A stretch of 64,000 nucleotides of DNA from NCBI GenBank assembly GCA_022495005.1, contig JAGYXB010001748.1, positions 1,139,474-1,203,473 on the forward strand, given 5' to 3'. The stretch's first letter is position 1. The number at the start of each line of letters is the position of its first letter. Made by a program: the position numbers and the translations under genes. Positions 2,386-63,764 of the stretch are shown piece by piece. The notes under the pieces were generated by a model that was not told the origin of the DNA, did no database searches, and saw only the letters and a program-made list of their open reading frames with translations. This DNA is from Rhyacophila brunnea. Lineage: Eukaryota; Arthropoda; Insecta; Trichoptera; Rhyacophilidae.

Positions 2386-3495
2386 CTAACATAAAACAAG
2401 CCTGCATTATAAATAAATCATAGAATGCAACATTGATCAGAAAGAGTTTAAATCAAGGAATTCTTATATAAAAGTTTTCCCGAAATTGTAGTAAATTCTT
2501 GGCATTGTTGAATAGGTAGATTACGTCAAAATTCATTAAACTAGATGTTCCTCATAAATTATCAAGTATTTTGAATTTAGTTTTCGGTAAAATTTCATGG
2601 AACTAATAAAATTACTAATCAATCTACGCTTTATTTATAGATACACATTAGAAAATTGCAAATAAAAACTTTTAATTCTTTGATATCAACTCTTAAATGA
2701 TATTATTATCATTGACTAACACACAATTAGATAAAAGCACCGAAGACCTATTAATTATTGGCGAAAGAGTCAACAACAGGTACAACGATACAATGATTAT
2801 GAATACAATATTACGCGATTGTAACAACAGAGTATAAAAATATAAGTGAAATGTTATGCACTATTTGCACAAACTGTTTACTTACTTAAGATCAATAGTT
2901 CTATCTTCTTAAACAATTATTTTATCATTAAATCATATTTCCATTCAATACTTATATAATATTTGAAAAGTATTTGTTCATCTGATTTATTTGGTAATGG
3001 CAAGATGAGAGATAAATTGAGAGTATTTAAAAAAAATATGTTTCAAATTAATTCATTCTCCGAAGATTCTACTTGAGGTATAAAAAAATATTGCTTTCCA
3101 AAAAGGGTATAATAAACTCATTACCATTATTTTACGTTAAACTTTTTCGCCAATAACGACTAACAATAAAGTTATAGTACAGCTTCCGATGGCTTTTCGA
3201 TGAACACGACCATTAACATTTAATATTCAATGAAATAAATTCAGAGACATGCCATCTTTTCCGTATTATTTTATCGTACATATTACGTACCTAGGAAAAA
3301 AATATTTACACAGTATTTTGGTGCGATTTTTTATTTAAGATTCAGACTAAAGCTATCGACAGCCGGTCTATAAACATGGAGTAATGAATACAAAAAATAA
3401 TAATAAAAAGTAAAACAATAATAAATTATTGAGGTGTATAAAACGCATTCAAGTGATTTTTTTTGTGTTGGGGGTAGTTTTTGTATTAATCTGAC
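2386..3495. other. AT-rich kinesin intron sequence
   Basis: Nothing beyond AT-rich intronic DNA was recognised between the hAT MITE and the probable third coding exon of kinesin-13. Confidence 0.4.
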
Positions 3496-42968: not shown

Positions 42969-43098
42969 GTATGTATTTTTGTGTTAAATATAATTAATAG
43001 ATATTTTATCCATTGTCCCAACTTTTGCTGTAACTTATCTGCTATTCGGAGTAATATACTCACTACCTACTCAAATAATTATCTATATTTTTTTACAG

Positions 43099-43802
43099 AA
43101 TTACACGACAAATTATCATGGTCAAGCCTAGGGTATGCGAACAATTTTGAGCAATTTACACTTTTTAAGGATAGCGTGGAAAGGATTGACGTCAATGAAG
43201 TCTCTTGTCAAGAATTTATTGACAGATATGAAAAAAATTATAAACCAGTTGTTATTACTGGAGTTCAGACTGATTGGAAAGCAAATTCTAAATGGACACT
43301 CGATAGACTGGCTAAAAAATATAGAAACCAAAAATTTAAATGCGGGGAAGACAATGAAGGTTACAGCGTTAAGATGAAAATGAAATATTACGTCGAGTAC
43401 ATGAGAACGACGGTGGATGATAGCCCCCTTTATATATTTGATAGTAGTTTTGGAGAACACTTAAGAAGAAAAAAACTCCTAGACGATTATGACATTCCAT
43501 TGTATTTTCGGGATGACTTATTCAAGTACTGCGGCGAAGATCGAAGACCACCATATCGCTGGTTTGTGATGGGACCACAGAGATCCGGTACCGGTATTCA
43601 TATCGATCCTTTGGGTACCAGCGCATGGAATGCGTTGGTCTTCGGACACAAGCGCTGGTGTCTCTTTCCTACCAACACTCCTCGAGAGTTGATCAAAGTT
43701 ACAGGAGCGATTGGTGGTAAACAGCGTGACGAAGCAATCACATGGTTCAGCCTAATATATCCAAAAACGAAATTGAGTTCCTGGCCGGAGGAATTTAAAC
43801 CG
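43099..43802 (+). CDS. JMJD6: JMJD6, coding exon 2 (JmjC domain)
   Basis: The exon follows TTTTACAG (ending 43098) and ends before GTGAGT (43803), in phase 0. It encodes residues 25-259 of a bifunctional Fe(II)/2-oxoglutarate oxygenase of the JMJD6 family, which hydroxylates lysines in splicing factors such as U2AF65 and has been reported to act on arginine methyl marks. Highly conserved segments include [42 protein letters not shown] and [18 protein letters not shown]. The metal-binding H-x-D is in [16 protein letters not shown] (His192, Asp194), and Lys209 in GHKRWCLFP matches the 2-oxoglutarate-binding lysine of human JMJD6. No stop or frameshift. Confidence 0.97.
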
Positions 43803-44249
43803 GTGAGTATAATGAAAAATACCATTTGATCATTTTTGAACATGAAATCAATGCTTTTGTTCCTATTTCTAAGTTTTATTTTAGAAAATTTTCAGTGTGC
43901 GAACTATGATTAATTATTACATTACATCACCATGTTTGGCCCTGATGCTTCCTCTAATGTGCAAAGCAAGGCGAATGTACGTGGTTAACATTGTGTGGAG
44001 AGCGACATACACATTGTATGGCCCATCACCGGCAAATGTTGGCCATACTTCAATACAGTCATTCTCTCTACACACTTCAAAGGGTGCCAACATTCACGAT
44101 GCTTGGCTCAATGTGATCATATGGTCCTCCACAGAGTGGAGGTTGTATTAATAGATTTTTTAATGTATGAGAAATGGATGTTGACCACTTACTCAACCTA
44201 CTAGGTCTATTTTATGACTCCAACAACATATTAGAAAACAACTTGTGAA

Positions 44250-59490: not shown

Positions 59491-59818
59491 GACCGGCTCT
59501 TTATAACCGTCATACGCACAGTCGTTGCATACCGGTGCGAGTCATGGACGCTAAATATGAAAGCAGCTGAAATGGTGGACTGCTTTGAGAGAAAGATCCT
59601 GAGGCGGATATACGGACCCATAAATGATGGTGGGGAGTGGAGAATTAGGCACCGCACGGAACTATTCCGCTTATACCAAGATTCAAAACTCTCCACCTTC
59701 AAAAAACTCCAGAGGCTAAACTGGGCAGACCATGTCCAGCGCATGCCTGAGTCACGGATACCGAAGAAGATCCTTGAAGGAAACCCAAGGAGGAAAAGGC
59801 CAGTGCCAACCTTTGCGG
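59491..59818 (+). pseudogene. RTE-like LINE fragment (C-terminal coding)
   Basis: Contains AAEMVDCFERKILRRIYGPI, LSTFKKLQRLNWADHVQRM and PRRKRPVP, the same block that ends LINE B (FERKILRRIYGP, RLRW-GHV-RM), from a diverged copy. Both ends are cut; the right end runs straight into the tandem array. Confidence 0.8.
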
Positions 59819-60345
59819 GCGTGAGCAAAACACTTGATCAAAATTTCATTGCAATCGGATGAATGGTATAGGAACGAAATAAAAGAAAATATAATGAAGA
59901 AGAAGAAGAGGAAGATGATTTTTCTAATTTAGAAACCTTGGCGGGTGTACGTACAATAATTGACGAAAGTTTCGTTGCAATCGGATGAATGGTATAGGAA
60001 CTATACGAATAAAAGAAAATAGAATGAAAAAGAAGAAGAATATGAATATGATGATTTTTCTAATTCAGAAACCTTTGCGGGTGTGCATACAACCACTTAC
60101 CAAAATTTCATCGCAATCGGGTGAATGGTATAGGAACGCATACGGGACAGACAGACAGACAGTCAGACAGACAAACAGACAGACAGGCATTCATTTTTAT
60201 ATATAAGATATAGCCTATACTCTTCGCGCAAGTGCAAGCAATAAGTTCACAAAGTTTTATCGCAATCGGATGAATGGTATAGTAGCGCATAAAATACGAA
60301 CAAACAAACAAATATTATTTTTTTTATATATTAGATTATAATATT
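59819..60345 (+). repeat. Tandem array of about 130-bp units (forward) plus microsatellite
   Basis: Four unit copies with AAATTTCATTGCAATCGGAT, GAATGGTATAGGAAC, AGAAGAAGA-rich spacers and CTAATTCAGAAACCTTTGCG. The array ends in a (GACA)n tract (60147-60186) and CATTCATTTTTATATATAAG. A further unit near 60247-60290 follows. It is the mirror-orientation relative of 57599-58012. Confidence 0.75.
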
Positions 60346-60906
60346 ATATTAATTTAGGCACCACATTATAAATGCATGAATTTTGTTATATATGGTAACA
60401 TGTACACTAGTTTTATGTTAATACTTTGTGATTGATTCTTAACTCTTGGGAGGCGCCTATAAGGTGGTCCCCTTATAAATTATCTGACGAATCGTTTGCG
60501 TCATTTTGCGTCAAAGAAACGCGCCGCTGAATGCACAAGTTGGTAGGTACCAAAAACGTTTTAAAATATTTTTTAGTTAAAAGGCGATGTCCCTATAATT
60601 CTCTAATAATCTCTAAATTTTATTTACAAATTATTTTATGATAAAAAGCTTTTGTACGGTGACCGGACAAAACACAACATGACAAAACAGAACAATACAA
60701 AATAGAACATGACAAAACAGAACAGTTACAAAGCAGAACAGCCAGGGGAAAATGAAACATTAATAAGTCTTGTAGAATCTATTTATTAATTAAATTTTAA
60801 ACGAAATACATATACTTACTTATATATAAATATTTAATATTTAAAAAAAAAACAATTTTTAAGTGAAATCATCAAGGTATAATATATACTTATTTTTTTT
60901 TACAAA
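60346..60906. other. AT-rich sequence
   Basis: Contains a short irregular repeat of ACAAAACAGAACA words (60665-60740). No gene was recognised. Confidence 0.4.
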
Positions 60907-63510
60907 AAGGTAAATGTACCAGTAGTTGACCTTTTTTCAATAAAATGCCCAAAATAAGAAACGTAGACACGGGATTGTTCTAAATTGTAGAGTTGAAACA
61001 AGTGAAGCCATCTGTGGTTGGATTGAGGAACTAACACATCACCATATGTCATAGGAGCGTCATAGCAGCTATTTAAAAACAACACATCACGCCGTAAGCA
61101 TTTTATTTTTAATTGTTTAAAAAATTTTAAAAGTGGATTTAAGCATAATATGGCAATTTAGGTAATGTTTTTGACTTCATAATATCAAGTTAATGCATTA
61201 CGGGCAGTCATAATATTGAAGTATCGATATCATTTGTAATTTTTAAGTTATATTTACAAGGAAGCAAGTTTGTGGGGGGGTGAACTACTCAAACTTTTTT
61301 TAATACTTTTTCAGTAGTTGACCAGGGTGGTCAACTACTAGATAAATTAAATAAAATTATTTCACTTAGTTTTGAACAATTTTTACATTCATGAGTATGG
61401 AACGATGATTATTTATTAATTAGAAGTGTCTAGGGTGGTTCTGTCCAGTAGATGACCTAGGCGTCAACTTTATTTTTTTATTTTTTCAGCAACGGGTTTG
61501 TGTAGTTTTTCTTCGGAAAACAAAAATTTCTTGAATTATAGCCCTGAATATAATAGCAACTGAATGAAGCAGGCCAACAATAGCCGACAACTTACGAGAA
61601 ATAGCGACGCGATAAAAAAAATGCAGGGCATCACGGAGGATTTACTTTGGTCATTATAACGTACCCATATAGCAGGGTCTTAGCCAAAAAAGGAATCGAG
61701 ACAGTAGCAGGTAAATGCCGACGATAAAGAATGCATAACCGTCATAGTAACAGGTAGTGTCAGTGGGGCTGTCACACCAACGACAATCCTCTACAAGTAC
61801 AAAAGAATTCCCCAAGAAATTTCCGAAAATGTGGACTTTGTCCATGGAGCCCTTAAGCTGTAACAGTACCAGGAGAATCGAAAAGTGTGCCTTCAATGGT
61901 TACATCAGAGGAACCCAAGCGGTATTTAGAGAGAGTTCCTGAATACAAACATTGATGAGGAAAATCTTGAATCATTCCGCAAAAACAACGAACCTGATCA
62001 AGATGACACGTCACTGTTCGCACTGTGACGAAAAGTAAAAAATGAGTTGAAAAATATCACTCCACCTGACCCGGTCAGACTCCATCGATGAGGCATTCCA
62101 AGAAGAGGAATCCGGTGATATGATGTCTTTGGCCGCCTGAAATACTATGAATTATTATGATGTTTCATCTCCAATCGCTAGGGCACCTGTGGCTGGTCTA
62201 ACGACTTGTAATGATACTTCGTCTCCAATCGCCAGTGAACCCGTGGCTGGTCCATCAAATATTCGTAGTCCATTCAAGAGACATTTTTTCTTCACCGGTG
62301 AAGGGGAAGAAAAATTGAACAAGTAAGCAAAAAAGGGAAAAAACCCCCACCAGTGTTTCCGGTAAACCTTGCCAGGAGTATTTCCTAAACAAAAAGAAGA
62401 AGAAAGAAGAAATGGAACGGTTGAAAAAAGAACGAGCTGCAGAGAGGCAAAGAAAGAAAGAACTAAATGAGCATGCAAAGGAAGAAAAAAAATGGGGGAA
62501 TTGAAAGCAGTCAAGAAGAAAATGCGTTTTTCTTCCGAGTCTTCTAACCCAAGTGTTGTCATTTCAGACTCAGCAGAGAGTGAATGGCATAAGTCTAGTG
62601 ATGAAAGCTTTAAGCATAAAACTCGATGGCTGCCCGTTATGAAAGTCATTAATGAACATTATATTATAAACTTCCCGGGAAAAATCGTCCATATTTCTAA
62701 AGTAAAAGCTACTATTTCATCGATGCAAAAGTGCGGGAGACTATGAATATGGCCAGAGCGACCCGATGTACTTAGCCATGAATGGAAGGCGATAGTATCC
62801 CACATAAATGACCCGACACAGTCAAGTAAGCAAAACTCGTAATGTTTATTTAGTTCCGAAATTGGACTTTATTTGGAATATCTAAGGATTTTTATGTTAA
62901 GTTTTATTTTGGTAAGTACTGAGCCTATGCGTTACTATGTAGTATGTATGTACTTAGTTGCTAAAATAAATATATTTTTGTATTTTTAGTTTGAAGTAAC
63001 TAATTTTGCACCTTTTGTTACACGAACAAAGCTGATGATTGGCTGTCAAACAAAATCCTCTCATATGTAACTTGTTACTGAACCGCCCATTGCTACCAAG
63101 TTGATTCAAGTAGCTATGGGCTAGAGTGGTCTAACAGGAAGCCCTGAGGCAACTCTGATGACAGATTTGCCATAAAGCCTTCTGATTAGACATGGTCAAC
63201 TACTGAAAAATATAGTGGTCAACTACTGGAACCCTGATTAGACATGGTCAACTACTGAAACATATAGTGGTCAACTACTGGAACTTTCAATTTGTGGATG
63301 GTCAACTACTGGAACAAAAACATGGTCTTGAGAAATTGAACACATTTTTTTTGCAACAGACCCTTTCTTAATTTTTGTCATGTCATATTAATTAAGACAT
63401 TTGATCCATTATGAGTAGACTTGCTTTGCCAACATTCCGTGTAATGCTAAACGTTAATCATTATTTTTGTTGATTTTTTTTCTTAAGTCAACTACTGGTA
63501 CGTTTACCTT
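60907..63510 (+). mobile_element. 2.6-kb TIR element with subterminal 12-mer repeats
   Basis: Terminal inverted repeats of 24 bp with one mismatch: AAGGTAAATGTACCAGTAGT at the left (60907) and the reverse of ACTACTGGTACGTTTACCTT at the right (to 63510). The 12-mer CAGTAGTTGACC (or variant) occurs at 60920, 61312 and 61446 near the left end; its reverse GGTCAACTACTG occurs at 63194, 63217, 63246, 63269 and 63300 plus the terminal copy near the right end. A decayed transposase lies between. No convincing target duplication was found. Confidence 0.7.
61640..62830 (+). pseudogene. Decayed DDE transposase (pogo/Tigger-like?)
   Basis: Plus-strand fragments in several frames: ECITVIVTGSVSGAVTPTTI then LYKYKRIP (61722-61808; compare the V-N-A-G-x-x-x-P-x-I-F-K-x-R-x-P strand of DDE_1 domains), NNEPDQDDTSLFAL near 61990, and a C-terminal FPGKIVHISKVKATISSMQK then CGRLWIWPERPDV (62674-62772). 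In between is a charged, low-complexity Lys/Glu/Arg region (62390-62530). Stops and frameshifts are frequent. The family assignment is by eye and tentative. Confidence 0.45.
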
Positions 63511-63764
63511 ACCGTTATTTTGAAGATAATGCATTTTTTTATATATAGAGTATATAAAATTGTAAGTATAATGTAACAACTGCAATGACATATTATTAAC
63601 AACTGCATGTTGGCCATTTGGCGTAAATACCTCAATTTATCTGTTTGATTTTGATAATCATGCACAACTAACTATTGCCACTCGATTGTGTCTCATACTT
63701 TTTCTTTTATAACTTCAAGGCGACCTGTATTAGCACTAACTAATAATAATCGGGGTGCCGGACG
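63511..63764. other. AT-rich sequence
   Basis: No feature recognised. Confidence 0.3.

Follow-up and report, generated by a model that had tools for sequence, protein, structure and literature searches.

What are repeated copies of a terminal-repeat word doing deep inside both ends of a DNA transposon? The question is raised by an element in a 64,000-nucleotide stretch of the genome of Rhyacophila brunnea (Insecta; Trichoptera), i.e., assembly GCA_022495005.1, contig JAGYXB010001748.1, positions 1,139,474 to 1,203,473, here called the window. The element occupies positions 60908-63509 and carries a 12-mer from its terminal inverted repeat (TIR), CAGTAGTTGACC, in clusters at either end. Judged from its sequence and that of its relatives, it probably belongs to a non-autonomous family of the pogo superfamily (Tigger/jerky-like) and is itself dead, with putative transposase-binding arrays of constrained spacing. 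This reading draws on a near-identical, oriented left layout of sites in five families of the same genome that use different words.

Ends, sites and coding remnants of the element

With at most one mismatch, the 12-mer occurs at 10 sites in the window, all within the element (0.19 expected), and this count was reached in none of 100 shuffles. When two mismatches were allowed, 14 sites were found, 11 inside the element and 3 outside. The word roughly extends to GTTCCAGTAGTTGACCA. Sites and duplicated units were located as follows.

60920..60931, + strand: site L1, CAGTAGTTGACC
61279..61290, - strand: site L2, two mismatches; offset 359, or 377 with a missing 18 bp counted
61312..61323, + strand: site L3, first half of an inverted pair
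61329..61340, - strand: site L4, one mismatch, second half of the inverted pair
61446..61457, + strand: site L5, one mismatch
63182..63232: first unit of a 52-bp tandem duplication, with two sites
63234..63284: second unit, 98% identical to the first
63194..63205, - strand: site R5, exact
63217..63228, - strand: site R4, exact
63246..63257, - strand: site R3, exact
63269..63280, - strand: site R2, exact
63300..63311, - strand: site R1, exact
63486..63497, - strand: terminal right site R0, one mismatch

A first-pass annotation had reported this clustering, with at least three sites inside the left end, five inside the right end and right-hand spacings of about 23-31 bp. All of this holds: the right-end sites, all on the - strand, follow each other at 23, 29, 23 and 31 bp, and at 186 bp to the terminal site. 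The same annotation described the sites as always inverted with respect to each other, which fails on the left, where those at 61279 and 61329 point the other way; the site at 61279 occupies a position also found in other copies. One 52-bp tandem duplication accounts for four of the five internal right sites, and at 98% identity between its units the right cluster is partly young.

The 24-nt TIR that had been proposed (60907-60930 and 63487-63510) is indeed complementary at 23 of 24 positions (96%). Other genomic copies coincide with these ends to within one base, and comparison with them shifts each end by that base.

60906..60907: dinucleotide of the left target site; AA in this copy, taken as a TA that has decayed
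60908..63509, + strand: whole element, probable non-autonomous pogo-superfamily (Tigger/jerky-like) copy, 2602 bp; ends set by comparison with other genomic copies
60908..60931, + strand: left TIR including the terminal site; a second terminal site (18-bp spacing, in most fetched copies) is missing here
63486..63509, - strand: right TIR including the terminal site (one mismatch)
63510..63511: right target-site TA

The host genome (1,086,822,381 bases) holds 990 exact 12-mers, compared with 52 for a reversed control. Twenty regions were fetched from among the 12-mer places listed, with the listed place C185:644700 lying outside them. Element copies were present in 17 of the 20, and the other three (L029, L030, L031) held a single 12-mer each; the word is hence not a generic satellite, a possibility named in the first-pass annotation. 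Copies with two ends are 1023 to 4145 bp long; a complete end has about 4-7 sites, and L026 has one right site more than the six of the common form. L023 and L024 share their left flank and are not independent copies. The longest copy, L016, carries an inserted stretch of about 1.4 kb (L016:2634-4019), at which the flanking element matches overlap by 4 bp; this is a nested insertion, possibly with a 4-bp duplication.

Copies of the window family start with TA followed by AGGTAAATGTACCAGTAGTTGACC and finish with ACCT followed by TA; the fuller ends read AGGTAAATGTACC after the left TA and GGTACGTTTACCT before the right TA. Of ten two-ended copies, eight are flanked by TA at either end, the other two being L025 (CA/TA) and the window copy (AA/TA). 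These two are also the only exceptions (CA and AA) among 15 left ends, the remaining 13 having TA; of 12 right ends, 11 have TA and L021 has TT. Read at filled sites, these flanks probably represent the TA target-site duplication of the pogo superfamily rather than a TA of the element itself. An unrooted right-end tree separates the 4-site copies L013, L019 and L021 from eight copies with six to seven sites by one branch (97/95), with bootstrap unsettled; high distances of L017 and L022 (deletion copies) and of L016 and L028 (other sequence in the aligned stretch) were read as artefacts.

Inside the element we found remnants of a transposase gene, in line with the degenerate DDE transposase that had been suspected there.

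61708..61833, + strand: transposase remnant, start of the DDE_1 domain; matches positions 203-244 of the family profile and is up to 75.6% identical to P0086, a transposase fragment from Ischnura and the best match of its kind
61818..61833, + strand: junction of the catalytic-core deletion; profile 245-376 missing, frame changes
61818..61898, + strand: transposase remnant, profile 377-403 (FRKCGL..PW)
61927..62058, + strand: transposase remnant, profile 418-464
62075..62839, + strand: C-terminal transposase remnant with stops and frameshifts, profile 497-728
62823..62885, + strand: C-terminal end of the transposase frame with stop (SKTRNVYLVPKLDFIWNI*)

A stitched window translation with X at stops, used as protein query, matched P0001 (E 4.6e-19) and P0002 (E 6.3e-18). 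P0002 has DDE_1 and HTH_Tnp_Tc5 domains above the Pfam cut-offs, and P0005 and P0006 have HTH_psq in addition. P0002 retrieves 156 proteins at E 1e-10 or better; among the best 120 of these (P0002 included), named ones are mostly from insects, several of them called tigger, jerky or HTH CENPB-type. A family profile of 109 of 121 proteins, i.e., those of 420-840 amino acids (aa), matches the window at profile positions 203-244, 377-403, 418-464 and 497-728, with changing frames and interrupting stops. No convincing window match was obtained for profile positions 1-202, with both helix-turn-helix (HTH) domains and the first Asp, or 245-376, with the second and third Asp.

Other searches added little. 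A Pfam scan of the window remnants alone and an Rfam scan gave no match, and NCBIfam gave a single one, below the cut-off, of an IS630 transposase to P0086 (E 0.085). A search of the PDB with P0002 was empty; a PDB profile search gave four weak matches, the best to the LCoR helix-turn-helix (2cob, E 4.7e-4) and weaker ones to TATA-box-binding protein, GPATCH1 and the CENP-B DNA-binding domain (1hlv, E 0.094). In viral contigs the two-site pattern and P0002 found nothing, and none of the 24 stretches matched by alignment A1 was a relative. Among prokaryote contigs the two-site pattern matched three times, always in short repeats of bacterial loci with no transposase match at E 1e-3.

According to PMC7386202, the pogo superfamily is defined by a TA duplication, a TIR of at most 40 bp in most families, a length of 1.2-5.2 kb and a DD29-59D triad. 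The TIR of 24 nt and the length of 2602 bp lie within these ranges, and the remnants together with the domains of their relatives point to the homology expected, i.e., DDE_1 plus HTH_psq or HTH_Tnp_Tc5. Because coding remnants, TA flanks, short TIR and relatives agree, we place the element in the pogo superfamily (IS630-Tc1-mariner group), and the superfamily left open by the first-pass annotation is thereby named. The Tigger/jerky label follows the database names of some relatives and is a label only; Tigger itself is called polyphyletic in PMC7325037.

The catalytic triad is lost in the window copy and throughout the 13 copies viewed across the junction (window copy included). This marks a deletion derivative and concerns autonomy, not descent. 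Point substitutions aside, the junction is the same in all 13 (window, L014-L018, L020, L025-L028, L032, L033), and the shared deletion removes the second and third catalytic Asp; L013, L019, L022, L023 and L024 lack the region and are uninformative. As the junction is common to 13 of 13 copies, we conclude that the sampled family is non-autonomous and derives from one catalytically dead founder. The window copy has no HTH region and can at least no longer supply the enzyme. L032 and L033 still have HTH-coding sequence with stops, yet lack the catalytic core: L032 retains both HTH parts, L033 the sequence from P0006 residue 56 onward. In L032 the psq-type and Tc5-type HTH segments (L032:1475-1636 and 2775-3299) lie 1.1 kb apart, as if separated by an intron or a later insertion.

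A near-identical left layout in five families with different words

Words were read at ten fetched stretches (L037-L046) around transposases of nine families or copies. The five loci examined first, L037-L041, represent four families, with the frames of L040 and L041 98.7% identical. In a de novo search the transposase span was masked and the most repeated 11-mer taken, with one mismatch and on both strands. The top words were AATAGTTGACA in L037 (9 copies), GGCCGACTACT in L038 (9), GGCTGACTTTA in L039 (6) and ATTATTGGCAC in L040 (8), and the latter word again in L041 (9). Ten first-order Markov resamplings per locus had maxima of 4 to 7, and L039 with its 6 copies only ties its highest. L037, L038 and L039 have long open frames with a DD35D triad; the second Asp of L040 and L041 was not found by a simple pattern. 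L043, 99.6% identical to L037 over 2870 bp, is another member of that family and has both ends.

In L037 (G000:C582:386800-393800) the open frame has 750 aa, and in L043 (C1699:46600-52600) it is interrupted; this sister pogo family looks recently active. The open transposase frame of L038 has 847 aa, with a 36-bp period tandem repeat (L038:3897-4434) downstream of the DDE region.

Offsets of the sites from the ends, in bp and with two mismatches allowed, were the following.

L018 (window family), left: 0+, 18+, 377-, 411+, 427-, 545+
L043, left: 0+, 18+, 379-, 414+, 430-, 549+, 562-, 587-
L038, left: 18+, 95+, 379-, 414+, 430-, 549+, 606-, 643+
L039, left: 0+, 17+, 157+, 377-, 412+, 428-, 547+, 584-
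L040 and L041, left: 0+, 18+, 374-, 411+, 424-, 557-, 580-
L018, right: 189, 221, 244, 274, 297
L019 (window family) and L043, right: 189, 221, 244
L038, right: 212, 234
L039, right, from its own terminal match: 190, 233
L040 and L041, right: 190, 211, 233; the right end of L040 is decayed

The common layout is thus 0, 18, about 377-, about 412+, about 428- and about 547+ on the left, and about 190, 211-221 and 233-244 on the right. All four inner left sites of L018 agree within 5 bp with those of L043, L038 and L039, and none of 5000 random placements did as well; for L040, three of four agree (1 of 5000). Support among the 15 left pairs tested is weak for L019-L039 (87 of 5000) and L038-L040 (123 of 5000). 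The left offsets of the window copy, 359, 392, 409 and 526, become 377, 410, 427 and 544 when the 18 bp of a lost terminal doublet are added, and the copy therefore fits the layout. We considered the doublet as a recent gain and rejected this, since sites 17-18 bp from the outermost one also occur in L043, L038, L039, L040 and L041; its loss from the window copy is more likely.

The layout agrees where the rest of the ends hardly does. With the sites masked, spacer identities were 0.624, 0.635, 0.633, 0.624 and 0.659, below the highest of 20 shuffles in all five comparisons; those of L018-L038 and L043-L039 were somewhat above the shuffled means (0.613, 0.620). Offsets of the ATG vary more, being 640 in L040, 708 in L039 and 744 in L038 (L043 is omitted for its interrupted frame). 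The window word differs from that of L039 in 6 of 11 letters and from that of L040 in 5, and words of the other families differ from each other in 4 to 8.

Several observations weigh against the main reading. Terminal sites were picked by eye beside ends in which TA is followed by (A)GG, and in only 2 of 11 letters do the words of L043 and L038 depart from the window word, which makes them close words. L019, of the window family itself, has left offsets of 370, 407, 423 and 541, with no match to L043 or L038 within 5 bp; its inner cluster lies 4 to 7 bp away from the positions seen in L018. On the right, the offsets group into two classes (about 189/221/244 and 190/211/233). Pairs taken from different classes match no better than chance; pairs inside one class reach 1 to 25 of 5000, except L038-L039 with 534 of 5000. 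Conservation of the 12-mers among window-family copies does not significantly exceed that of the bases around them: circular shifts did as well in 74 of 419 and 94 of 719 cases. Among the 59 listed P0006 matches no intact copy with the exact window word was seen, with words read at the fetched loci only. As the nearest candidate partner we regard the C582 family (L037, L043), whose ends also begin AGGTAAA and whose word is two letters away.

Three further loci also count partly against it. The layout prediction had been recorded before L044, L045 and L046 were fetched. L044 has no repeated word (maximum 4, resamplings 4-5). L045, with the word AGTAGTCAGCC, has left sites at 18+, 95+, 370-, 407+, 422-, 537+, 564- and 590+ from a degenerate outer site beside a TA-AGG end, picked by eye as zero point, and no right array was seen in it. 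Only 1 to 3 of these match within 5 bp; within 10 bp 4 of 7 do, which 0 to 3 of 2000 random placements equalled. Moreover, L045 is related to L038 and L039 (63-66% at the nucleotide level) with a word one letter from that of L038, and is not fully independent. L046 has 11 copies of its word (resamplings 4-7), an 18-bp doublet and one right site at 193, and no inner left match even within 10 bp. Strictly judged at 5 bp, L044 and L046 contradict the prediction and L045 bears it out in part. Arrays with an 18-bp terminal doublet hence reach further than the exact layout, which is supported for five families only. L046 (G000:C1760:186200-191700) is a more distant relative, with TA followed by CAGTCAACCTGGGTA at its ends and a different inner layout.

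Possible role of the arrays and rival explanations

A putative array of transposase-binding sites, as first proposed for this element, remains the best reading of the clusters. In the founder, the deletion took away the second and third catalytic Asp from a DD35D-type transposase; copies then spread, presumably moved in trans by a related transposase reading the same ends, and such non-autonomous copies retain the sites. The 12-bp word is most likely bound by the two-part N-terminal HTH domain of that transposase. On an end plan of an 18-bp doublet, a mixed-orientation left cluster about 377-547 bp in and an oriented right run about 190-245 bp in, several transposase molecules would bind each end and assemble a paired-end complex, and spacing would be important. 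Such a multi-site platform is the simplest reading because the TIR-internal site repeats inward in set orientation.

A bolder version can be put forward only tentatively, as a conjecture we consider rather unlikely. Here an insect pogo lineage would keep one fixed end plan, i.e., the 18-bp doublet and inner sites about one nucleosome (190 bp) from the right end and about two (377-430 bp) from the left, with the ends paired around nucleosomes; the plan would be selected while words drift with their own transposase. We rate it lower because the window word is only two letters from two sister words. If true, distant sister families could share one genome without reading each other's ends, and close families with words two letters apart, e.g., the window family and C582, might be cross-moved.

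It seems improbable that the arrays arose as by-products when the TIR was duplicated in tandem and play no role in transposition. The 52-bp and 18-bp tandem duplications are plain, L026 has its extra right site over the common six, and conservation among copies is not significantly higher in site columns than elsewhere, all as this explanation would have it. However, between families with 2-8 of 11 word letters different and with spacers that align no better than the best shuffles, the oriented left positions coincide to a few bp, which fresh duplications would not produce.

Less probable still is that the words are bound by a host factor or control transcription of the transposase gene, as a promoter, repressor or centromere-protein-like target, rather than serving transposition. 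The left cluster does lie just upstream of the coding region in relatives (ATG at 640-744 in L040, L039 and L038), and domesticated pogo proteins such as CENP-B exist (PMC7386202). But both TIRs contain the word, and families within one genome use different words, which a shared host factor explains poorly. That TIRs and coding remnants stem from different elements is opposed by the recurrence of the same element's parts in 17 regions.

A CACTA, hAT, Transib or undescribed-superfamily element has next to nothing in its favour beyond multi-site subterminal arrays being best known in CACTA and hAT elements, and the comparison with the three that had been suggested gave no fit: the flank is a 2-bp TA, the ends read AGGTAAA, and the other domain families listed for the relatives, all below cut-off, include none of these superfamilies. 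CACTA elements have CACTA termini and a 3-bp duplication, and were rejected on both counts. hAT elements have a hAT transposase domain and an 8-bp duplication, and Transib elements a RAG1-like transposase and a 5-bp duplication; no hAT family and no RAG1-like transposase family was listed for the relatives scanned.

In Drosophila pogo, each end has two 12-bp sites and the transposase gene contains an intron. A 12-bp transposase-binding site in Drosophila pogo was reportedly described by Wang, Hartswood and Finnegan in 1999. Short TIR, TA duplication, HTH-DDD transposase and a 12-bp site in the TIR (as reported for pogo) are the same in pogo of Drosophila melanogaster and in the window family. 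In the latter, each complete end of a fetched copy holds about 4-7 sites, which on the left include a cluster at a depth of 377-547 bp and on the right a run at 190-245 bp (deeper when duplicated). The end sequences and the word differ as well. The first-pass view that this design is not typical of mariner/pogo elements is thus half right: a 12-bp site as such is reported for pogo, whereas the larger array and the cross-family layout are unusual.

Arrays of a subterminal 12-bp motif for TNPA in En/Spm (CACTA) are alike in offering many short subterminal motifs to an element protein; there, the transposase is unrelated, with CACTA ends and a 3-bp duplication. Sleeping Beauty and other Tc1/mariner elements with inverted repeats containing direct repeats (IR-DR) likewise have more than one transposase site per end, as two direct repeats in long TIRs, and are not known to have a distant cluster. 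For Tigger/jerky-like insect pogo elements (DD29-36D/Tigger), the available parts of PMC7386202 and PMC8472432 describe no subterminal arrays; the window copy differs from these elements also in lacking the catalytic core. In the open-access PMC literature, pogo was not found together with subterminal repeats, no such array appears in the titles or abstract starts of the publications listed, and the end words occur only in publications unrelated by title. Parts of PMC9976928, PMC2836289 and PMC2170065 were also used in the comparison with known systems.

What is new here is an oriented site layout kept nearly unchanged across four other families in the same genome, three of them with long open DD35D frames, while the words differ. 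This touches two long-standing questions, i.e., by what means a transposase recognizes its own ends among those of closely related elements, and why subterminal repeats are present in many DNA transposons. With several related families of nearly constant layout and changing word in one genome, word-to-protein specificity and the role of spacing become directly testable. In such a genome a catalytically dead derivative could also rise to high copy number.

Surroundings of the element in the window

Directly left of the element lie a tandem array with a 136-bp period and a 15-bp GACAAAACAGAACAT array (59808-60138 and 60666-60740, respectively). Between 52757 and 57089 we found open frames in opposite orientations that resemble reverse transcriptase and endonuclease of the long interspersed nuclear element (LINE) type, with translations read by eye. 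A coding exon of the host PSR/JMJD6 gene occupies 43041-43829; its best match is from Amyelois transitella at 85% identity, the next named matches are moths and butterflies, and flies stand lower in the list.
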